Positions 3,826-53,400 of a DNA stretch of 64,000 bases are shown piece by piece (position 1 is the stretch's first letter; every line of letters starts with the position of its first letter). The DNA comes from Centroberyx gerrardi (taxonomy: Eukaryota; Chordata; Actinopteri; Beryciformes; Berycidae): contig NC_136002.1 in assembly GCF_048128805.1 (NCBI RefSeq), positions 28,402,162-28,466,161 on the forward strand, given 5' to 3'. The translations under genes and the position numbers were made by a program. The notes under the pieces are model-generated. The model had not been told where the DNA came from, did not search any database, and was given only the letters and a program-made list of their open reading frames with translations.

Positions 3826-3916
3826 CAACACCCCACCCCTCTGCGCTCCGCTGCCAGCTGTTTCTGGTTAGGCAGCTCGGCCTGCAGTGAAGAGGAGGAG
3901 CGGGCAGGCCGGAGTC

Positions 3917-4588
3917 ATGGAGCGGTGGCTGGAGCTGGCTGCGTTCGGCCTGGCCGGGACAGGGTGGCTGTGTGCCATCCTGACGCGCTGCCTGGCCCTC
4001 TGGAAGGTGAGCGGCACCGTGGACAACACCACGGCCACTCTGCCCGCCTACTGGGACGGGGTATGGCTGGAATGGGACCACTGGGACTTAGCCCACGACG
4101 GCAGCCTGCACTGCTCCTTCTACCAGTCTCTCATGTCTCTGTCTGGAAGCTTCCGGACGTGGAGAGCCCTCATCATGGCAGCCATCGGGGCCGGGGCTTT
4201 TGCTGTGGTGATCGGCGCGGCGGGGGCTGTGTGGTTCCCCAAGCGCGGCCAGGTCAAAGTGGTTTCTGGTGCTCTCTTCGTTTTGTCCGGGATACTGATG
4301 CTGGTCCCCACCGTCTGGACGTGCCATCACACCAGCCAGCCGCTGGAGGGCGCCGTGCCGCTGCGGAGAGACTGGGGAGCCGCGCTGTACCTGGGATGGA
4401 TCTCCTTGGCTTTGATGCTGGCCGGAGGGGGGGTGCTCATGACCAGATGCCCCACCTTTGAGGAGCGCGAGGGGTCCGAGGAGAGGAGGAACCCTGATAC
4501 AGAAGAGGAGGGTAACCACCCGCTGAGCAGCATCCACAGGACTACATTCACACACAGCCAGTATGGACGGAGATCAGAGGCTCTCTGA
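3917..4588 (+). CDS. divergent claudin-like four-pass membrane protein
   Basis: A 223-residue protein with claudin architecture. TM1 is at about 7-25 and W29 matches the conserved loop-1 Trp. The signature region is D47-G48-V49-W50, followed by C66. R83 marks the end of loop 1. TM2 is at about 84-104, TM3 at about 115-138 and TM4 at about 160-182. The hydrophilic tail is rich in Glu and Arg. Two features are unusual. The first signature Cys (expected at 53) is Trp, so the conserved loop-1 disulphide cannot form in the normal way. The tail also ends Glu-Ala-Leu rather than Tyr-Val. An extra Cys (TWTC-type) is present in the second loop. The ATG at 3917 has G at -3 and +4, and the in-frame codons before it have no ATG. 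It is intronless and in tandem with the canonical claudin, so an old tandem duplicate is likely. It could also belong to the wider PMP22/claudin superfamily. Confidence 0.85.
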   Translation: MERWLELAAFGLAGTGWLCAILTRCLALWKVSGTVDNTTATLPAYWDGVWLEWDHWDLAHDGSLHCSFYQSLMSLSGSFRTWRALIMAAIGAGAFAVVIGAAGAVWFPKRGQVKVVSGALFVLSGILMLVPTVWTCHHTSQPLEGAVPLRRDWGAALYLGWISLALMLAGGGVLMTRCPTFEEREGSEERRNPDTEEEGNHPLSSIHRTTFTHSQYGRRSEAL

Positions 4589-10516: not shown

Positions 10517-13500
10517 GTGAGTTTATTTGAAATCTAAGTGGAATTGTAAACGTTAGCCTGTAGTAACATTGCTATGGCTAGCAGGCTAGTTAGCCGCCTT
10601 TTATTTGCTGCAGGTGAATTGAGCTTGTATCCTGTTAACCTGTTGCGTGCTGCTGTGCAAAGAATAAGATAAGCATTAGCCTAGCAAAACCATAGCAGAG
10701 CCTTTTGCATTTGCATCGTAGCTAACCCTAGTTAACTTCCTCATGTATCTCACAACAATAATATTGCATGTTACTTCCCTTCCAGTGTCAAAGAATGCCC
10801 ACAGTCCCAGTGAGGGCTACTTCATGTCGGTATGGCACAACAGACTGTACTTGTATTCAGCCGCTGCACTTGTCTTTGGGATCTGGTTCTCTGTGAAGAT
10901 GGCATTTAAGAAGGTAATCTGTCACTTGCTGATGTGTGGGCTCCACTTATTGCCTGGTGTATTTGTTAGGCTTTATGTGATATTGTGTATATTGCACTGT
11001 TAATCTTTTCAGAGGTGCTGAGTTTTGACACTGGCCACTGGTATGGAGTTGCAGTTTCTGAAAGCATTAAATACTCTTCACGTTTCCAAATATTGGAGAC
11101 CAACTGTGTCCTTCCATGAGAAGACAGCTGTGTGTGTGTGTGAGAAGACATGCCAGGTCTTATGTCCTTTCATGAATTGTCTTCTTCTGTTTGCTTTTTT
11201 AGAAAAGCTTCTCCAACCAAGTTGGCCCGTGGCTCTACAAAGCTGTGAAGGAGAATGGCCACTCTGTGGAGAGAGACACTGTGGTTCATGTCTCAGGAGT
11301 TAAAATCTTCTACGGCTCACAGACTGGAACAGCAAAAGTATGGATTTTGTTCTCTGAAAACATAAACATGCTCAGGATGATATGGTGATTCTATGATATG
11401 ATGTTACATACAGTAACACAAACTAAAAGTGAGCCTGCATTTATGAAGCTTTTAAGAATAGTAGTATTGATCTGGGGTTACTACCCATGTTGCATGACCT
11501 TATAGACTTCACTGCGACTTAACATGTCACTACATACTTACTTTTGGCTGTTTGTATGGAAATTTAGTAGCTCAGGGCTTGTCAGCAGAAAAGAAACTCC
11601 CACACCAGACTGTAAAAAACACTCAGGTTTATACACACAATCAAAAGAGATAAATAAGCTGTTAAAGGAAGCAATAAGCTGTAAAATGTAAGATTGAATT
11701 TATGATTGATTTGTTCAAGGCTAGATAGATTAGCGGCTGATAAACAGTGAATTGTAAAGATATTCTAAGATGTCTTATAAGAACTAACTGTGATTCTCAC
11801 CTTGACTTGTCCAGGGCTTTGCAAAAGAGCTGTCAGAGGAGGTGAAGGCTTTGGACATACCAGCCGAAGTGATTGACATGCAAGACTATGATCCAGATGA
11901 CCAACTGGCTGATGAGGTAGGCCAAGTCATGGGAGCCAAATAACGATTTGGAGTAAAATGACGATTTGCATTTTGACAAAATTTTGCAGCAGTTACAACT
12001 CTTATGTGGCAGTTAGTCCAAATTAAGCTTAGGGGTTTAATATTTTATTTAACTAGATTCCTCTCCTATTTGAATTTTATACAGTTACTGCCACATGCAG
12101 TTCTAAATTTTTTTTCAGTTTGGTAAAGTAGAGCTCCATGCATAGAACTGACTTTTGAGTAATTACACAAATACGACATCACAGGAATATTTTGTTAAAT
12201 CTGTCGTCAGCGGCTCTAACTCTTGCTCTCCTTACTTTTGGTTGCTTGTAATGTTGGTGACACAGCTTATTCTGCTGTTGCACTCATTGTAACTTACTTT
12301 TTAATAGCATCAGCTAAATGCCAAAAATGTAAGATGAGGACACAGCAAACTTAGCCAGTCTACTCTCTGTACAGACTGCACTTTGTGGCTGGTTAGTAAT
12401 CCAGGAAGTCAAGCCTCGACTGCACTCACAGTAAGTCGCTCTGGAGTGTCAGCTAAATGTCTGAAATGTAAATGTAAGTACACAACAACAGGCAACGTGA
12501 TTTAACGGGGAAGGTAATCCTCAGGAAATGCTTTATTAGAATAAAGTTAATCAGAGTGGAATAAATCACGACTGACATTCACTGAAAGCTTACCAACAAA
12601 ACAGCCAAGTAACAAACCACAAGCAGCCTCAGGTTCTTCTGACACTGTTACGCTCCAGTCCAACTTTTCCACTTCATTGTCCAGTGATTCAGTTCCTCAA
12701 ATAGCTGGCACAGAGGACAGACGCGCTAAACAAATCCCGCTCAACTGAGGAAAGATTGATTATTTTCATCAACGTTGCAGTGCATTGAGAAATGAATAGG
12801 AGATTGGCTGGCCGGTACACAGCAGGAGAGGAAATTGCTATTTATTCAATAGGATAGCGATACAGTTTTTGGTGATGAAAAATCTCGCCAAGAGAAATGA
12901 CCACAGGCAGCAGCCGGCCCCTAGATTCAGTTGTAGACGCTCAGTGCATTGACTCCCACTGGCCAGCCATCAGTCAAGAAGACACTCTCTCCTGAGCAGC
13001 GCAGACCCAGCTAGACATGAGGCATGATAACCGCCTCGGTCCGGCAGTTTCCTGTTCATTTACAAGGGGCCAAGGAGAGGATGTGTGCTTCATATTTCAC
13101 TTTAGTAGTCCCTTTGTAGCTACTCTGAGAGTGATTTATTTTCGCCTGTGTGCCGGTGAATTGGTTTTCTATTAGTCTGCTGTCTTTTGTTTTGAAATAT
13201 CAGCCTTAGAAATAGACTCGTATATTTGATTGTATGTAAACATATATCATGATTTTAGTTTTCACAAATAATAATTGTTGAAAATTTTTTCAGTAGTTAA
13301 ACATGATCAAGATGTTGTTATAAGATCCCAAAAGTGCATTTAAATTTTTTTTTCCTCACTTCAGAACCATTAATTAATTCGATTATTGTGATTAATAATC
13401 TTGTTCACAATATCTATCAAAATGATCGAGGTCATTTCACCTATAATCATGCAGTCCATCTTACAGATCATTATTCTCCCTCATTCTTTGCTGAAATGCC

Positions 13501-16500
13501 CTAATGCATTGTTTCACTAATTCCTCTTGTCCGTTTTGATCGTTTCTCTGCACAGTGCACCAACAAGTCGGTCTGCGTGTTTCTCTTGGCCACCTACACT
13601 GACGGACGGCCCACGGAGAACGCTGAGTGGTTCTGTAAGTGGCTGGAGGAGGCGTCCACCGACTTCAGATATGGGAAGACTTACCTCAAAGGCCTGCGAT
13701 ACGCCGTGTTTGGTCTGGGCAACTCTGTCTATGTTGGCCACTATAATACGGTGAGAAAGCTTTCCATCTTGAAATCCATCAGTGTTTTTGCTGATCTGAT
13801 AATCCTCTTCAAACCTTAGTCTGCAGTGTTTTTGACGTTATCAGTTATGGGCATCTATATACACAAAGAAGGATAAGAATTCAAAGGGGTAATCTCTTAA
13901 GTAATCGCTGAGCTTTATTGACCCCTATTGGTGACTAGTAGGAATTGCAACAACATTGATAGAACTTAAATCCTCCTACACAAGTCTCTGGCAGTTAGAT
14001 GGCTAATTTTCATCTGTAGCCCCTGGCCAGCTGTTAAAAATGACTACCTAGAATACAAGGCTATGGTGGCCTGTAATTGACACAAACAATAAAGTCTCAT
14101 TTTCACAATAGAGACGAGTAAGCAAGCTAATTAAAGCAGAGATCCAACAGAAACGTCTAGTGAAGAGGCAATATATCATCATGCAAAATACTGTAATAAT
14201 AATACTACTTTTTTTTTTTTTGGGCTGTTTTTTTTTGCCTTTGTAGCTGAAATGTCTTGTGACCTCGTAGCACCGTGACAGTTGAAAATGCATGGGGAGC
14301 AGGTGGGGGGAGGAGACTGGGATTGTCTTGAAATGCCAGTGGGGAGTTTTTGTTCCAAAAGGGAGTGCAGGCCAGAAAGTGAGTTTTAAAAGCCAGACAT
14401 CTCAGCTCCTGCTGAAGTAATCATTGAGTCACTGGTATCGATCAGCAACCCTATTAAACCCCCGCAGATATATTAGGATCATTTTGTGCTACGGGACAGT
14501 AAAGATCTAATTTATTACCCCCTTTAACTCAAAGTACAGGTCACTTTCCTCAGTTTACACACAACAATAAACCATTTGCAGCTTTGGATTACATTTAAAC
14601 ATTGTGTGTAGCTGTAACATTATTTCTATGCTTATGTATCGCAAGTGCAGCAAAGTGTTGAAATCCAAATAATCAAAGCATCCAAAGCTACTAGTCAGGT
14701 GACTGTAGCTCAGCAGGCGGCAGCATATTCCAGTTCCAGACTGGACTTCAAATCCACAGCTAAATTATTGTTTACCAAAACGTCAACTTGGGTGAATGAA
14801 ACAAAAGGCACTCTTCTTTGAAATTCTTTAAAAAGCCTTTATTTTCTCATCTAGGGACATTTAAATACACTTACAACACTCCAAAGTGCTTCAGTATTGG
14901 CTTCATTTTTGAACATGAATTGTTTGAAGCTCCCTGATGAAGGCCAGTGGCGAAACACTTTGCTCCATTTTTGTAACACTCTCTGTTTTTCTTCTCTTTT
15001 CTTCTTCGTTCCAACTATTACTATGAGTTCTCTGGCAGAATAAGCCAAGCACTTAACCCCATTCAGTCTTATTTAACCCCGCTTCTTTTTTTTTCCCTCT
15101 CCAGGTGAGTAAAAACGTGGACAAGTGGCTGTGGATGCTGAGCGGCATGCGAATGCTGACCAGGGGAGAGGGCGACTGCAACGTGGTGAAGAGCCGTAAC
15201 GGCAGCGTCCAGGCAGACTTCCTGGCCTGGAAGGTGAAGTTCCTGAACCGCCTGCAGGCGCTGGCCAAGGGAGAGAAGAAGAACTGCAGCGGGAACTGTA
15301 AGACAGGAGGCGGCTCCTGTAAGAACAAGGGGAAAGACAGCCAGGGCCAGACAGACGAGGAGAAGGCAGCTCCGCAACACAACAGCTCTGAGGTAATGGA
15401 GGAACAACAATGCATTTAGCTCTGTATTGTGTTAGCACGGCACACTGTGAACGCTGGACGACACGGGTTCAAGCCCCTGTATCTGCCCTGCTGAAGTGTC
15501 TTTGAGCAAAACACTGAATCCCTACCAGCTCCTGGAACGCTATTCTGTAGCTGACCCTGACCCCCAAAAATGTCCCTACAGGGATCAATGAAGAGTGATG
15601 ATGATGATTTCTATTATTGTTGTTATTTCATTGGACGGAGAACTATTGATAGAGCCGTGTCCGTCAGTCCATCCGTCAAACATGATATCTCAGGTTTTGA
15701 CCAAACTTGGAAGAATGATGCATTTTGGCACTATTCTGGCATCATATGTAAAAAAAAATACACCAATTGACCTGATGGAGACACTATAATTAAAGGTCAG
15801 AATTTCAAACTTAGAAACTGTTAAAACACTCTGATTGCTGATTGGCCTGCATCATTCATGGTGGGCGACATGTTTCTCTTGTTATTATGCTGGCATTCTA
15901 CTGTATAAAGCCCACTTTTGTAAAGCCCTTACATACCCAGTTCAGTCTGGAGACATTCACTTTGCAGACAATGCTAGTGTGTGTGTGTGTGTGTGTGTGT
16001 TTGTCTTTCTATCTGTATTAGCCTTGTGATAGACTGGCGACTTGTCCATGGTGTTTCCCTGCCTCCTGCCCAATGCATGCTGGGATAGGCCACAGCCCCC
16101 CGTGACCCTGAATAGGAATAAGCGGATGAATGAAAGAATGAAGAAAGAAAAAGAGAGAGAGTGTAGTTGGTGTCTGTAATTAGGAGGGTGCCCTCTGGCT
16201 TGTGATGATGCCTTTCAACATCATATGGACGCTTCAGATATCAAAGCAGCTCTTATCACACTACTCAGGGAAGTGGACCGGCTGTGAGAACAACCTCGTG
16301 TTGCGCTCTAACAACGTGATTAAAATCAGATAAGCGCTCTAAATGTCTCAGAAAGACGAGCGCTACTCTCAGTTTATCATGTCCTGATTTAGTAGCACTG
16401 ATGTCCTGCATTGTTAGGGATGGGGTTGTGTTATAAAATGTTCACGACTTTTATGAAATTTCTCATTTCCGTCAACACCAGGATGTTTTTGCAGCACGTC

Positions 16501-19500
16501 AAAATATCACGTTTTTGTTTTTCTCTTGTCATTCACTGAAATTATTATTATTATTATATACTATATATATATTATTATACACTTTTCACACGGAGGCAAG
16601 TACATCCACACACACACTAAGTAACTGCTTTTATACACATCACATCACACCACACACAGATGACCAGCTGTCATGGCAGCGGGCGTCTCTGAGCCGACTC
16701 GGGGCCGAGAGTTTTCCCCCTCTGTCTGCAGCGCTCGCTGCACGCAGCAGGGGTGACATTCAACCGGAACCGAGAGTAGTGGAGAACTGTGGCGAGGGGA
16801 CCATCATCGAGATTTATCTACCTACCACTCATCCATTTAATCTCGCCGCCGCACATGTGGGCGAAATCGTCTAGATAGGGCACGCGCTGTGATAAAATCC
16901 TCTGAAGCGCCATAAATATGCATATGCTTTTCTTATTTAATCAGACAGCCTAAGAGAAGATAATGACGTGCAGTAAATGCGTTCCATATGGGCCCCCCTG
17001 CTTAATCATGGACAAATTTTAGATGGGTCATGGGTGTACGCATATGCGAATCTGGAATAGGCTTTACTCCACTTTGGAGGAGACTTCTGGAAGTGAAAAG
17101 ACACTTTATTATCATATTACACCCGCCATTATCTTGTTTTTTTTTTCCCGTCCTCATCAATATTCTACACCACCTGCTGTCATTTACAGTTTCCACTATG
17201 CTGTCTTCCCTCTGAGTCTTGCTGTTTCCTTGTCCTCTCATCTTCAGTAACTTTATTTTGTTTTAACCCTCTCTTTGGGTCCTCCTCTCTCTGGGGCTGA
17301 AAGATATTGACAAAAAATCAAATTGACAGAAAATTGCATTTGCGATTTAAACTGCGATTCATATCATCACAAGTTTTTCCTGTCATAGATTTTTTTGAAC
17401 TTTAAAATTGTTTAAAGAAAAGTAATTTTGTTAAAAAAAAAAGAAACAATGTCAGTGTGCGAATGATGAAAGTTTTTCACCAATATCGTACCAAAGATTA
17501 CCCGGAGCTCTAAAACACTTTGTTCAGAAATCCATTTTGGACGCCCCTCTCTCTTAAGCAATTAATTGCAGCCTCTGCGATTTGGAAATTGCAGAAGTTC
17601 ATATTGCGATTTCGATCTTTTTTCGAGTAATTGTTCAGCTCTACCTCTCTCCCTGCAGGAGGAGCTGATGGAGTCCAGCAGTGATGAGGAGGAGTCTGCC
17701 ATGACAGATGAGAGGAAACCTGGTTCTGTAGTGGACGTGGAGGATCTGGGCAGCATCATGAACAGCGTCAAAAAAGCCAAGGTCAGACTCAAACCACCAG
17801 CACAGTAACGCCAATGTTTTAGTTTACCCATTAGGGACGGGACGATATGCTTATCTCGCGATACGATTCAATACGCGATATGGGGTTCACGATTCAATAC
17901 AACCACGATACGATGTAATAAATAAAAGTTCAATGACAACAAAGTCTGACTGTGCAGAATTATGTTTATTTCTGAGCCACAAATCTTTCTAGCAATGGCA
18001 TCGGCTTGCTAGAATGTAAACAACAATTTAAAAATGTCATTACAAAGTGCAAATAATTAGAGCTTTAGAACGATTAATCGATTAATCGATTAGTTGTCAA
18101 CTATTAAATTAATCGCCAACTATTTTGATAATCGATTAATTGGTTTGAGTAATTTTTTAAGAAAAATAAGTCAAAATCTCTGATTCCAGCTTCTTAAATG
18201 TGAATATAATTCTGGTTTCTTTACTCCTCTATGACAGTAAACTGAATATCTTTGGGTTGTGGACAAAACAAGACATTTGAGGACGTCATCTTGGGCTTTG
18301 GGAAACACTGATCGACATTTTTCACCATTTTCTGACATTTTATAGACCAACAACTAATCGATTAATTGAGAAAATAATCGACAGATTAATCGACAATGAA
18401 AATAATCGCTAGTTGCAGCCCTACAAATAATATAATTTTGGATGGGAGATCTTGTGAAACTGTCATGGTCAAGCGTCTCATTTGTGATTACTACAGCAGA
18501 ATAAAATGGAGCTAATATTGTGATTCATTTTTCTGCCCCACGATACGTATTGTCACATTTTTGTATTACGATATATTGAATTTCGATATATCGTCCCATC
18601 CCTAATACCCATGTTTTTCATTACAGCTGTGTTTTCCATAGATATTTTATCTGATGCTCTTATCCAAAGAGACTTAGATTGAGTTCAGTGTCTCCCTCAA
18701 AGACGTTACGCCACCTTTCCATAGCTTGGCATAACGCTGCTGCCCAGGCAGTCGAATCATCCAGAGATTTATATTTATACTTGTGTACAGTTATATATAC
18801 TTAACGCTCTGCTGCACAATACTACAGTCAGTTGGTTGTCGATTCGCTACAACTGTACCGATTTCATCATCAAGCAGCTCTATTTTCAGCATTTCCGAGT
18901 TAAGGCCTGTAAGGGGGCACCATCGTGGTGTTGAGCCTCCAGCGCCTTAGCCCGACATCAGTGTGTGAGTAAAGAGAAAAGTGGTTTCATTGAAGGAGAA
19001 GCGGCAGATGGGTTGATAGACACCAGACCCTGGCAGGCGAGAAGCGGAGGCTTGCGTAAGAGCGAGGACGCCCACTTCACAGACTTGCGAGGAACGAGTG
19101 ACTCAAGAAAACGGAGGGGGAAAAAAAGAGAGAGAGAGAAGGAAGAGGCATGATCGCTCCCCTTTTACGAGCCGATCTGTAAAGATTGGGCCAAAGAAGT
19201 GAGACGTGAGAGCGGGTGAAAGGGAAGGAAGAGAAATGCAAGTAACCGCCCCGTGTAATGTACCTGTGCTTTTGACTGGCATGTTGGGAAAGTATTGACG
19301 CTCTTTAAATCAGAGTGAAAGCCTTCTCTGAATTTAGTTGCTCATTGGATGTGTCATGTTGTAACAGGTGTCCAGCACATCTTTCGCTTGTGTGCCTTGC
19401 ATGTTGTGCAGTGCCTAACACTCGACTAACGTTGACATGACTCTACTACACTAACTCAGTAACACAGCAGCCTGTCAAACAAAAAAATAGTTGGTGGTTA

Positions 19501-34900: not shown

Positions 34901-37861
34901 AATAAAAAGCTACCACGTGAAATCAACTTGTATACAACCTCAATACCTAAGAATGGATTCTCTCTCTTACCATCCACACCAGGCTGTTCTACCTGGCGTG
35001 AAACTTTCTTTACACATTGTGACTTTTAAAGCGAGCGAGATGGTTGATTTCCCCATAAGCAATCTCTTAATATCATGTTGTGGTATTTCTTGAGCAGATT
35101 AAAAGATGCAGGGGTAAATTCATAAAACTCTGCAGTAACAGAATAGCGCCGTGCAAAATCCGCGACCCGGTAAGTTTACCTAATTCATAAATTTACCACA
35201 GCTGCGAGTACCGTGAAGGAGCCAGAGTGACAGCCAATCAAAACCAACATGTTAATTAAGCTTTACATAGTCAACACCGTGTCATTGCCATGGACCGCGT
35301 AGACGTGTCAGAACGGCAGAGAAAATAACCTCCTTTCTCTTCATGCACTCCTGCTGTGATTGCAATGTTGACCATGATCAACCGAATCATATCAGATGGA
35401 AACTGGCTTTTATAACTGCAGTCAGAGCGGTAATTAATAATTGCAAAGCCAGTGTGTGAGTCATATTTATTGAACATTTTGTGTTGTGTTTCCAATGATA
35501 ATTAATGGCCTGGGACACAATATAACGTCATCTACTGATTTTTTTTTAATCCTTTAAATTTATTTTCATTAGTTAAGATGAATTTCTTCAATATACCGTC
35601 TGACGAGAGCAGGTGGTGTTTTTTGAGCCACGGTGTCCTTCTATGAATCGCTTTCACAATATGCAAATGATCAAAAGGGGTGGACGTACCGGATAAAATC
35701 CTTAACGCTAATAACAACCACGTTTCACGTTTATGAATGAGAAAACACCCCGGAGGAGTCACCCAAACATGGCCGCTGTTAGCCAGTTGCAGGAGGCGGT
35801 GGTAGTCAAGAGGTTAGAGAGGCGGGCTTGTGACTGAAAGGTCGTCAATTCAAATCCCAGAGTGGCTGAAAGAATCTAGGTGGAGAAAGTGAACATGAAA
35901 CACTTATTTTTTACAGTCTATCTGGCCAACAGTAGAGGACTGCGGCACTGGGCAGCTCCCAGGTGTGAAGGAGTGTAGCTGTGTGAGTGTTAAGTAGGGC
36001 ATTGTTAAAGTAAAAGTTTCTTTATTACTTGTGCGACTACATTTAATCACATAAAAAAGAAATCCAGTTTATTCCAATGTATTTACACATATGTTAGCAT
36101 TCTTCATCCGAAACCAGCCCGTGTGGTTCTGGTTCAGAAGTCGATTGAGAGCCTTATTTCTTCTTGTCTTTCTTGTCTTTCTCTCTCTGCACAGGATACA
36201 AACTAATTGGAAGTCACTCGGGAGTGAAGCTTTGTCGATGGACCAAGGTAATGTCATTTACTCTTCTCAGCAGAGCATCGGGCTTTTTGACAACCGCACA
36301 AACCACATAAAAGGTGTTTGTTTCTGTTTCTCAGTCCATGTTGCGGGGGAGAGGAGGCTGCTACAAGCACACCTTCTATGGCATCGAGTCCCACCGGTGC
36401 ATGGAGACGACCCCCAGCCTGGCCTGCGCTAACAAGTGTGTCTTCTGCTGGAGGTGGGTGGCCCGAAGAGCGAAGCCACTCTGCAGTTCAGCTCTGCACT
36501 TTGTAATTGGTTTCACACTCGATGCGACCGGACTGGTCCTGGTGGTTTGGGTTTCAGTCAGGCTGAATTTGTCGCTCAATTGCTTAGGCTCGGGTCAGGC
36601 TTGGATGCGAAACTATTTTTAAAAACTATTATCAGCAATTTGTCATTACTAATTTTTTTTGACAGTTAATACAGTGATTCTCAACCTTTTTCATATCAAG
36701 GACCCCTAACTTAGTACACATTAGAGCCGCGGACCCCCATTTGATGAGATTTCCTCTCTTGAAACCAAATCTGAGAATATTGTTATTGTTAGATTTGATT
36801 TTGTCCAGAATTCCAAGACTATCTGTATTGTAAGTAGAGAGATAACAGAGAAACTATGATCAAAATAGTCATTCTTCTACATTCTGTAATTGTGTTAACT
36901 TCTTGTAAATGAAATAATGGTGAAGAACAATTCATCAATTTGCTGGGGACCCCCTGGAACACCCTCAAGGACCCCTGGTGGTCCCGGGACCCCGCGTTGA
37001 GAACCACTGAGTTAGTAGACGCCGGCTTCACAGAACATCAGGTTTGGGTTTTTCAGGTTGGGGATGGGCAAGGCTCTATTTTTCAGGCTCGAGTCACCCC
37101 TAATATATTGGTGTTTAGTCGCTTCTGCTATTTTGCTTTACTGCTTTATTTTGCAAGTTAATGCAAAATTTAAGAATATCCCATTACCTCGAACTCTTAT
37201 ATAAGTTGTTTTTAATGATGTAGTTCCAGAGTTCTTAAACATTTTTTAGCTGCAGAATCCTTATGAGAAATTTAGTCTCTAGCCTTAGGACACAGGCTCA
37301 TTAAAACACACTGCTGCTTTAACCATGGTGGGATCCGCCACAAGTAGGCTGGCTGCCCACAGCTTAACAAACCAGGGCGTTGTGTATTACTCTCTGCATA
37401 CTTAGTTATATTCTTGTCTAAACCCAGCTTCCGCACCTCTTGTCTGCCTCGTTAGTCGAGACCGCTTCCCGTCATTGAGCGATGCCGTGTCTCTCGACTG
37501 GCGGCGAACGAGCTGGTGATTTACGAGCCGAAGACTTAACGGCCGGCATAATTGGGAGGCCCGAAGGTGGATGCTGATTCATTATGACACCGGTGGCGAG
37601 AGACAGGGGCCCTTTACCCCCCTCAAGTTCCCTTTTTGAAAGGGCGACTGTTTCGAACACTGTGAAAGGTCGCTGTCAGCGTGTGCTGCGGTGAGCGGCT
37701 GCCCTGTCACCACAGATATGCCAGTCTCTGTTAAGGCCGCTATCTGGGTCGACAGGGAGTAAGCAATTTCAGGGCAAAGAGGTATCGTTATAGCTGCCCT
37801 CGCCGTCCACCTCTCTGCAGCAACAGGTGGCAGTAGATTTGATGGACAAGGGAAGTGTGTG

Positions 37862-43200: not shown

Positions 43201-45625
43201 CCTAATATGTACCGGCCATATTTACTGTTCCCAGGCCTCAACCCTGTTAGTTAGTTTGTCTATCAGCTGGAAACTTATGAACGGATTTCCATGAAATATT
43301 GTGGACAGATAGTTTAGGAATCTGGGACTTCCAGTATTAGACAGTTATCATTTCTTAGCCATAACCATGAATCTAACGGGGAGAGACTTGATTCCAAATC
43401 CAAAGAGTGTGTTTTATGGTTCAAGAAATTCAATTTAATCAATTTAATTTAAAATTTAAAGCTGCAATAAGTGACATTTTCTGACCACTAGAGGGTGACA
43501 GAAACCGCAACGCATTTGTAAATAACACACAGCAAAGCCACTGCACTACGGAGGCCTACCTAGGACAAACATTGCAAAGCACTGTGCATAAAGGCTAATA
43601 GCTAAGCTAACCGTACATACGGACAAGTGTCACCGGCTGTACCAGTCTTGCTTTGCCAGAACTTTCTTCCGTTAAATGCTAATTCGTGTCCCACAATGAC
43701 AAGTGAAGAGGTAGGTAGCAAGTTTACTAGTTTACTAACTTTACTCGCTTGCTTTATCAAGTCTGCCATTATGAGGAACTTTTCAGGAGTGGGAGGGGGT
43801 GAGGGCCGCGTTTAAACAGCGAGGGAGGAGACAAGCTAGTTTTAAAAAAAAATGAAAAGCTACTGAATGGACCGAGGAGCTTCGTTCTGCAGCAGAATTT
43901 GTAAGCTTTAGAAAAGAGGTGAAAACAGCAACACAGCTGGCTGCTGTGTGGATTTTGGTTTATACCATTATGTCTCAATGAAATCTCCACATAGCACACA
44001 TTAGTTTCAGGATTGGTTATAAGGTCTGGTATTGGTTATTGCAGTGATAGGAATGATGTCTTTGGGTGTAACAGCAAGAATTGTTGGAGAATTGTTCAGC
44101 GTTGGCTGGGTTTTGTACTCTCTGAGTGCCTTCTGGTTTTTCTATTCAACTGTTAGCTTGAATAAATAGTTCCCTTTTTTTCTTTAGAAGTGGTTCCCCT
44201 CTTCTTTTTGTAGTGTTTTGCCTCCTTGGGAACCCTTTGCCCTTCTACACACCCATCACGTATGTACTTGATGATAAGCACATTTTCACAGCACCCTGTA
44301 GTCCCTGCCAGTAGATCCACTGAACAGTGGGAGCTGGAGAGACCAAGACCACCCAGTGGAAAGAAAGAGAGAGAGGGGGAGGGAATGAAAGAGAGATGGA
44401 CTGGGCAGCAGGCCAAGCTCCCAAAGCACAGCTTTCTGAGACTATTCCAGCAGGTCTTTTTTGTCTCATTCTTCCTCTCCTCTCCTCTCCTCTCCTCTCC
44501 TCTCCTCTCTTCTCCTGTTTCCTCTCCTCTTCTCTCCTCTCTTCTCCTGTTTCCTCTCCTCTCCCCTGCTCTCCTCTCCTGTTTCCTCTCCTCTCCTTCT
44601 CCCTCGCCCTCTCCTGTTTCCTCTCCTCTCCCCTCCTCTCCCTCTCCTGTTTCCTCTCCTCTCCTGTTTCCTCTCCTCTCCCCTCCTCTCCCTCTCCTGT
44701 TTCCTCTCCTCTCCTGTTTCCTCTCCTGTCCTGTTTCCTCTCCTCTCTTCTCCTGTCCTCTCCTGTTTCCTCTCCTCTCTTCTCCTCTCCTCCTGTTTCC
44801 TCTCCTCTCCCCTGCTCTCCTCTCCTCTTTCCTCTCCTCTCTTCTCCTCTCCTCCTGTTTCCTCCTCTCCCCTGCTCTCCTCTCCTGTTTCCTCTCCTCT
44901 CTTCTCCTCTCCTCTCCTGTTTCCTCTCCTCTCCCCTGCTCTCCTCTACTGTTTCTTCTCCCTCGCCCTCTCCTGTTTCCTCTCCTCTCCCCTCCTCTCC
45001 CTCTCCTGTTTCCTCTCCTGTTTCCTCTCCTGTTTCCTCTCCTCTCCTCTCCTATACACCTCTCATTCTCCTCTCCTCCCCTCATCTTTCATGTGCAACA
45101 CGTCTCTCTCTCTCTTGTGCCGGTTTGGTTGTACGTAATTACTCAGCTTGACCTCACTTCAAAGCTTGACCTTATGCAGTTTTTTTCCCTCATGGTTTTC
45201 ATAAACGCTTTGCAATGACAACACTTTGACTTTTGCATCCACATGTAAACCCCATCATTCTATTCTTGGAAGACATTGATTAAGTCCAAATGATCAAGTG
45301 GTGGAATCTGCTTCAAATTTACCTTTTATTCAACCTTTGACCCTCTATCCCTGCAGGTGTGCCTGGAGTGAAACCCGAGCGGTATGAGGAGGGCTTGGCG
45401 GTCAAGCACTGCGCCCTCTCGCTGGTGGGAGAGCCAATCATGTACCCCGAAATCAACACCTTCCTCCGCCTCCTCCACACACACCGCATCTCCAGCTTCC
45501 TGGTCACCAATGCACAGTTCCCCCAGGAAATCAGGTGGGGGCAAAACCGAGCTGCACGGTTGTGTATTTTTGTATGTGTGTGTGTGTGTGTGTTTTATCG
45601 AGGAAGGATATACACACAGGTGACG

Positions 45626-50400: not shown

Positions 50401-53400
50401 GATATGGTGGTTGATGTGCAGGCGAGGGAGTTTCCGATATTGTGATTTTGTTTGTTTTTCTTTTTATTCAACCCTAGATTTGTGGGTTTCTGCCAGCCAA
50501 TGTTTTTGCTCAATATTACACCTTTGAACAGAGGAGAATCTGTCTTTAGCACAATCCACCGTTAAAACTGTTGAGTCTCGCCCTGCCGAGAACATTTACT
50601 GAAGCTCCCCAGCTCCCAAATATCTTGACAGCGCTAGTTGATTTCTTGGAAAAATGTGAATCAAAACACGCTGTCGAGGCGATGTTTAACAGAAGTGTTC
50701 TCCATTCCCCATAATTCCTTTCATCTCCAACTTACAGTCAGTCAGACTCTTGGATCTGCCAGATTCCTCGCCTCCTGTGCAGACTCATCTTTAGTTTTTT
50801 TTTTGTTTTTTTTTTCGAGTGAATCAGAGCAGCTGGCGAAAGCTGCAGGCCTGAGTCCTCTCTGAAACCACAGATTGAGATGTCCTCTGTATTTACCAAA
50901 TTCTTGTGGATGCCAACAGTAAGATGGTAAATAAATAAAAGAGAACATTTAAAGCTTTCAACACCTCACTCAAGGTGGGGGAAAAAGGGTGTCAGGTGTT
51001 AGGTGTACAGCTCGCTTTTCTGTATTTTTGTTTTATTGATTCCTTTCATACTTGTAATGTTTTGGCTTTTCTTATAGATATGTTTATTGACTTTTCACTT
51101 TAAACTTTACAGAACACACAAAATGTACATGTAAACATAAAAAGGACAAAATAGAATAAGAATGAAACAAAATTGAATGACATGAAAACCAAAACTTAAC
51201 AAAACTCAGCTCAGCACGTATATATATTTATGATAACACTTTGTTACAGGTACAGTTACTAAACGTATAATTTTAGGAGTCACATATGGAAAATTAGTAC
51301 AACATCAATTAAGGTTGCGTCTTATCAACATGTTTACATCCATATATTCCAGGTTTTGGCATTTCATTTTAAAGTTGGTAAAGCCGACTTCAACTCAGAC
51401 GATCACTTCTTTGTTTCCTATGAACTCTGTCCCTCCGTACCATAAGAATGAAAACATCTACAGGTATGTGTTTCTATTAATTCTGTGATCTGTGTCCACA
51501 GTTGCCCCCGCAGTAGTTAAAAACAGTACAGCCATTAACCTTGCAGGCCTTTTCATCATCTTGTGAGCGGAGGGGATGTACATTATCACAGCCTGCATCT
51601 CGCCGGCGGGCCGTGTGTGTAAATCGATTCTCCGCGCCGGCCTGTTTCCTAGAAAGCCAAAGTGAGGAAAAAATAAAACAGCACTCAGGCGCACCGGGCG
51701 TAACGACCTTGAAAAAGATGTGGGCTGTGAAGTCTTTCAGAGGGAGCCTGTATTACAGCGATCTGTAATCGGTCTGCTTCCTCTTGTCTAATGCTTTAGT
51801 AAACAATGGACAAATTCATTACCGCTCTGTCTGAGGTGTTAGCGATTGAATGGCTGGAGGTAAATCACTGCTGATAGATCATTGCGCTCTAATTGCCTTT
51901 AGATCACCCTTTTCACCACATGCAGACAAGCAAATGTCATGTGAGGTAACTGGTCTTATCTGCTATGCATGAATGGCCAACCCACGCTGAAATATTACTC
52001 ATTCTTTTATATTATACTACACATATTCTGTGTAGTTATTAGACATGTAGAAGACACTTTCTTGTGGTGCATAATTCACACAGTGCAAGTGATATCTGGT
52101 GAATTTGGCATTTAGGCTTTTAGCTGAAACTCCCATCTAGAGTGGCTTGCATCAGATGAGGTAGGTTTAGTTTAGTTTATTTGCACATAAATAAATAAAT
52201 AAAAATACATTTAGAGAATTACCAGAGAAGGAAATGAGAAAGAAATGTACATGTGCAGGTGATGTAAAAAGCCCAAGATGAGCTTATATCAAAACCTCAC
52301 AGAGGTTATACAAATTGCATCAAGTTACAATCATTGAAAATTAATTTTAAGCAGTTACAATAATTAAATTACAATTACTGAAATGTAGTTGCATAATAGT
52401 GTTTAGTAAACTGGCACAGGGATCTGTGCCTTGCTCAGGGACACTTTGACAGGACTCATGGCTGTTGATGGACACATTGGCTGCTGCGGGGATCGAACCT
52501 GTGACATGATGGTTACAGAATAGTCTCTCCAGCCACTTGGCCGCCCTGCTGCCCACAAATACACTGCTTGAATCTGGCCTGCACCGGGCTTTATTGTCTT
52601 CAACTGAATACATATTGACATCCCCTCTAATATCGTTTTGTAGCAGTGAGAGCGGGAAAAAAATTTGGCATGGAGTCCAGTCATTACCACATTTTACTGG
52701 TCCAGATCTGCTTGCATGTCATATTTGGATGTTCATGTTGTGATGTAAGGACTTATTTTGGGGTGGCAAGTAGAGCTGAACAATTAATCGAAAAAAAAAA
52801 AATGGAAATCGCAATATGAACTTCTGAAATTTCGAAATTGCAGAGGCTGCATTTAATTGCTTAAGAAAGAGAGGCGTCCAAAATGGATTTCTGAACAAGG
52901 TGTTTTAGAGCTGCAGGTAATCTTTGGTCCATGAATCAAGTACAATATTGGTAAAAACCTTTCATCAGACTCAAACTCAGTAAATCCTGCACACTTACAT
53001 CAATTCTTTTTTAACGAAATCACTTTTCTTTAAACAATTTTAAACATCTAAAAAAGTTATGACAAGAAATACTTGTGATGATATGAATCGCAGTTTATAT
53101 TGCAGTTGCAATATTCTGTCAAATAATCGCAATTAGATTTTTTTTGTCAATATCTTTCAGCCCTAGTGAGGGGGGGATACAATAACACTACATGATGTTT
53201 CTTTTTTTATAGTTGTCAGATTTTTTGCCACAGGGACCACTTTTAGTTAAGAGGAGTGGAGGAAACCCTGCATAGTGTTTTGCATGCTGTTAACTCTGCA
53301 GAGTTCTCCATCTGACCTCTTCTGAACAAGCTACATCCAAAAAACCTGCGTACATCAAAGTTATGTAATGCAGGATGCTAGCAATTTGTCAAAACCATTA

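Follow-up and report, generated by a model that had tools for sequence, protein, structure and literature searches.

The window analyzed here is a stretch of 64,000 nt of Centroberyx gerrardi DNA (contig NC_136002.1), which contains two claudin-like reading frames at 2166–2861 and 3872–4588, a minus-strand SBDS exon (Pfam), and the tyw1 gene on the plus strand. Thirteen tyw1 coding exons were placed from 10824 to 57662 by tblastn guided by the human TYW1 protein sequence. These exons join without a stop codon into a frame of 591 residues that matches Flavodoxin_1 (E 1.3e-26) and Radical_SAM (E 8.7e-11), while the TYW1 model TIGR03972 matches residues 350–591 with 259 bits, under its curated cut-off of 317.95. 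Scanned singly with Pfam, the exons yielded one match in 6 pieces (Flavodoxin_1). Human TYW1 residues beyond 603 found no convincing tblastn match within the window, so the gene model is short at that end. Within one tyw1 intron, positions 44450–45120 form a long low-complexity stretch rich in pyrimidines, which is open in several frames and whose reverse strand was a source of spurious tblastn matches.

The exon at 17659–17781 and its surroundings are the subject of this analysis (Table 1). Its donor, AAG/GTCAGA, is the single GTC among 13 tyw1 donors. As the exon is 123 nt long and in phase 0 at both ends, skipping it keeps the frame and removes 41 residues from the linker that joins the flavodoxin part to the radical-SAM part. 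The original prediction had numbered it exon 7, behind intron 6; it is the sixth coding exon, behind intron 5, if coding starts at 10824, and the former numbering would need a further upstream exon, of which none was found upstream of 10824 in the window.

Table 1. Positions of features at and around the tyw1 acceptor, in window coordinates
Feature	Positions	Strand	Basis
Preceding tyw1 coding exon, donor GAG/GTAATG	15105–15392	+	tblastn; joined frame
TTTTAAC, empty-site branch-point candidate (A17266)	17261–17267	+	score 5.31 at 32 nt
Left CCTCTCTC of the 8-bp target-site duplication	17284–17291	+	repeat comparison
Non-autonomous, probably hAT-type element, 352 bp	17292–17643	+	ends of copy 2; 8-bp duplication; short imperfect terminal inverted repeats
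GTAAT, best branch-point candidate (putative A17630), 28 nt from acceptor	17627–17631	+	score 4.07, best adenosine scanned
Competing AG in element end, 20 nt upstream of acceptor	17637–17638	+	use would add 20 nt and shift the frame, with a stop 9 codons on
Right copy of CCTCTCTC, most of the polypyrimidine tract	17644–17651	+	repeat comparison; acceptor scan
CCTGCAG, intron end with acceptor AG (17657–17658)	17652–17658	+	sequence; joined frame
tyw1 coding exon, sixth by count, 123 nt, phase 0 at both ends	17659–17781	+	tblastn with human TYW1, E 4e-6; joined frame is open
Second copy of element family, 395 bp, in later tyw1 intron	52771–53165	-	blastn; end comparison

A 352-bp element between identical 8-mers had been proposed to end 15 bp before this exon, and both the element and the 15-bp gap were recovered at these positions. 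The element starts with TGGGGCTGAAAG and has a second family member in the window (copy 2; 78% over 397 columns by blastn, with 307 of 348 ungapped positions identical). Copy 2 begins TAGGGCTGAAAG and ends TTCAGCTCTA; its start and stop bases correspond to those of the first copy, and its flanks are unrelated. The final 16 bases are identical in both copies, which provide the sole 2 matches to this pattern in the window at up to 3 mismatches (shuffle mean, 0.99 matches). Because a second family copy shares its ends, it is near certain from these alignments that 17292–17643 is an inserted element in the tyw1 intron.

Identical 8-mers spaced 360 bp apart make up 15 of 63,632 pairs across the window, and 12 of 144 among all-pyrimidine pairs, both counts including the CCTCTCTC pair itself; the duplication thus weighs less as proof, since the site is all pyrimidine. 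CCTCTCTC has 12 occurrences in the window over both strands, one of them inside the element at 17546. The frequency of such pyrimidine pairs would suit a reading without any insertion, in which a chance pyrimidine repeat lies around unrelated intron sequence, as would the short and imperfect terminal inverted repeats (8/12 matches, and 9/12 in copy 2) and the lack of a clean target-site duplication around copy 2 (4/8). A wider alignment of the two element ends was equaled in 27 of 300 shuffles. However, copy 2 has the same start and stop bases despite unrelated flanks, and the 8-mers lie exactly at those bases; a chance repeat was rejected on the coincidence of these ends and is hardly credible.

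By its structure, the element is most likely a non-autonomous hAT-type transposon. Passages of PMC2874221 describe an 8-bp duplication together with short terminal inverted repeats, of 5–27 bp, as hAT traits. The hAT MITEs treated there share with the present element the 8-bp duplication (here CCTCTCTC, on either side at the ends that copy 2 defines), an apparent lack of coding capacity, and more than one copy; the candidate terminal inverted repeats here are likewise short but imperfect. As expected of a MITE, the element is short, non-coding, and repeated, with copies of 352 and 395 bp within the window. Exact 26- and 24-base element patterns gave 0 matches in viral contigs and 0 in bacterial and archaeal genomes, and blastn of the element against phage records gave no match, results that say little because these collections hold no fish genomes.

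Another hAT-like element (17832–18604, 773 bp with its insert; ends TAGGGACGGGACGATAT and TAGGGATGGGACGATAT) is flanked by TTACCCAT and ATACCCAT, which match at 7/8 positions. It begins 50 bp past the exon, so that the exon is bracketed by two hAT-like elements. Nested within it is a further hAT-like element (18058–18423, 366 bp; ends TAGAGCTTTAG and TAGGGCTGCAAC) with the perfect 8-bp direct repeat CAAATAAT.

The acceptor before insertion was reconstructed as an empty site by rejoining the flanks with the element and one 8-mer removed. The empty site ends TTTTAACCCTCTCTTTGGGTCCTCCTCTCTCCCTGCAG and, as had been anticipated, is an ordinary acceptor: its heptamer TTTTAAC, which fits nnyTrAy in full, sits 32 nt from the acceptor, and the AG-free zone spans 49 nt. 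In the present sequence, the adenosine of this heptamer is 392 nt from the acceptor, with 18 AGs in between, which bears out, for the old branch-point candidate, the displacement claimed in the original prediction. The insertion would have moved this site out of range, and continued use of A17266 was rejected on account of the intervening AGs.

The right 8-mer is indeed most of the polypyrimidine tract, and a target-site duplication inside the tract is supported. With pyrimidines at all 8 duplicated positions and CTCTA at the element end, the acceptor would have kept its tract; the second 8-mer and the terminal CTCT of the element occupy the place of the former upstream part, and pyrimidine content is 0.88 in the empty site and 0.88 after insertion. 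The proposal that the duplication rebuilt the splice site therefore stands as regards the tract, but the AG-free zone fell from 49 to 18 nt, which may have weakened the acceptor somewhat. In human data given in PMC1431707, acceptor isoforms occur for 15.1% of exons with an AG-free zone of 12–19 nt, compared with 9.6% overall.

Such a short zone is consistent with damage to the acceptor by the insertion, whereby the exon would be mostly skipped in frame or joined at AG 17638, which would shift the frame. The competing AG has C at −3 and a pyrimidine content of 0.65, and the exon length and phases would permit skipping. In NF1, three Alu insertions in polypyrimidine tracts and one in the AG accompanied exon skipping (as described in PMC3219598), so tolerance of the present insertion is not a given. 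However, the tyw1 acceptor retains 0.88 pyrimidine and its CAG, the frame of the exon is open and matches human TYW1, and AGs as near to a branch point as this one is to A17630 can be bypassed and usually are, as stated in PMC1431707 and PMC2991248. On balance, damage of this kind is unlikely.

The element end at 17635–17641 (TCAGCTC) is complementary over 7 bp to the exon start at 17662–17668 (GAGCTGA). The resulting hairpin would pair both AGs and may form around the acceptor; it was predicted in 40-, 121-, and 281-nt contexts and was absent in a 120-nt context from 17601. A comparable 7-bp match arose in 3.4% of 20,000 random placements, and the 121-nt stretch with the hairpin had a z of −1.78, with 12 of 200 shuffles equally stable.

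Branch-point candidates were sought by scoring adenosines in the AG-free zone and the 15 nt upstream with a matrix of frequencies from PMC8531310, in which rare letters were filled in by the analyst; the rules and frequencies are mammalian. In published practice, the search for a branch point covers the AG-free zone and at most about 15 nt above it (PMC1431707), and predicted branch points lie mostly no more than 7–8 nt above the zone (PMC2991248). With an AG-free stretch of only 18 nt, these published mammalian rules require the branch point to fall in the last bases of the element. Three adenosines, all within the element, were scored: A17630 (GAGTAAT, 4.07), A17637 (TGTTCAG, 2.87), and A17643 (GCTCTAC, 0.56). 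The best-scoring candidate in reach is thus the adenosine of the GTAAT to which the original prediction had pointed, at the predicted 28 nt before the last intron base, a distance close to the mean reported in PMC8531310 for predicted bovine branch sites (28.8 ± 11.2). That prediction had called the branch-point distance ideal, and the word holds for the distance only: the motif has the canonical TNA but no position-3 pyrimidine, and splicing from A17630 would have to pass over an AG 7 nt downstream of it.

Among the other 11 tyw1 introns, best scores were 2.84 (intron 8), 4.1 (introns 1, 7, 9, and 11), and 5.31 (introns 2, 3, 4, 6, 10, and 12), making 4.07 the second lowest of the 12, if only just. 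The 200 nt scanned for intron 12 contain no AG, and the best-scoring site there is at 100 nt. The 87-nt tyw1 intron at 36248–36334, with an AG-free zone of 19 nt, has the weakest candidate of the 12 (2.84).

Splicing could also proceed normally through another residue of the element end, namely A17643, A17637, or a non-canonical one. A17643 lies in the AG-free zone, and its crude U2 pairing energy is −0.7 kcal/mol versus 0.6 for GAGTAAT; the corresponding values are −0.7 for GATTAAT of copy 2, −0.1 for the old site, and −0.1 for intron 4. This score partly opposes A17630 and is too crude to separate the candidates. Against these residues, A17643 is just 15 nt from the acceptor and without a TNA, and A17637 belongs to the AG itself; use of either, or of a non-canonical residue, appears improbable. 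A further reading is partial exonization of the element by splicing to AG 17571, which would add 87 nt (29 residues) in frame. No other of the 18 AGs that separate 17266 from the acceptor gives an in-frame extension free of stops; ahead of AG 17571 come GC and a copy of the tract carried in the element, CCTCTCTC at 17546. It would nevertheless be a weak acceptor (tract, 0.53 pyrimidine; best branch candidate, 2.87 at 15 nt), and such exonization is very improbable.

As a control, window DNA was placed at random 18,434 times ahead of the 15-nt tail that precedes the exon; 56% of these placements scored at least as high as GAGTAAT, 19% gave a full nnyTrAy, and 80% had some TNA. DNA landing at this position would therefore mostly bring a branch-point candidate, and the motif at the usual distance found here (A17630, with TNA, at 28 nt) is one that 56% of random placements also provide. 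From motif and distance, it is plausible that the right end of the element, at A17630, carries the branch point for the exon.

In the present orientation, both copies offer a candidate (4.07, and 5.31 for copy 2), whereas neither does when flipped (best 2.87, overlapping an AG). Conceivably, the right end of the family is a portable branch-point module, made up of TTAAT, whose A stands 13 nt before the end, and then TTGTTCAGCTCTA; in a polypyrimidine tract and in this orientation, the duplication would keep the tract and the element end would replace the branch point, such that insertions would survive where others would not. We consider this general reading doubtful. If it were true, copies just upstream of acceptors would be biased to this orientation, an effect that cannot be claimed from only two copies.

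Taken together, the most probable course of events, in our estimation rather likely but far from assured, is that a non-autonomous hAT-type transposon entered the polypyrimidine tract ahead of the tyw1 coding exon, that the tract was kept, and that splicing now uses a branch adenosine in the right end of the element, most likely A17630. The sequence itself shows the element with both ends, the duplication of 8 bp, and a tyw1 frame that is open. The AG at 17637–17638 would be bypassed because it lies only 7–8 nt downstream of A17630. The main form is expected to be inclusion at 17659, and a share of transcripts may skip the in-frame exon or use AG 17638 as +20-nt isoforms.

If this reading is correct, a transposon now supplies part of the acceptor signal for a coding exon that already existed, instead of making a new exon, and the case points to a testable bias in the orientation of insertions beside acceptors. 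It is a good illustration and a modest surprise, as ordinary DNA offers an equal candidate more than half the time. Searches of open-licence PMC papers returned no title on this tyw1 locus. Transposon-supplied predicted branch points for new exons or pseudoexons are already in print (PMC7951965 and PMC6822395), and splice signals supplied by the target duplication of a transposon have likewise been published (PMC9860276). In the COL4A5 pseudoexon described in PMC7951965, a DNA transposon, MER58A, likewise supplies the predicted branch point; there, the 3′ splice site also comes from MER58A and a mutation activates a new, harmful exon, whereas here the signal of an existing coding exon would be replaced. 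The BLOC1S2 exon derived from MIR and AluSp shares a predicted branch point from transposable elements but, unlike the tyw1 case, is a new lineage-specific exon from two retroelements, by the account in PMC6822395. Introners similarly show recruitment of a transposon target-site duplication for splicing, but as outlined in PMC9860276 they create new introns, while the tyw1 element fell into an existing one. The NF1 Alu insertions have in common with the present element a location in the polypyrimidine tract of an existing exon; those reported in PMC3219598 caused skipping, whereas the coding frame is open in the tyw1 case. The tyw1 insertion is thus likely a further example of this kind of recruitment, in which tract duplication and branch-point supply would both occur at the acceptor of an established coding exon.
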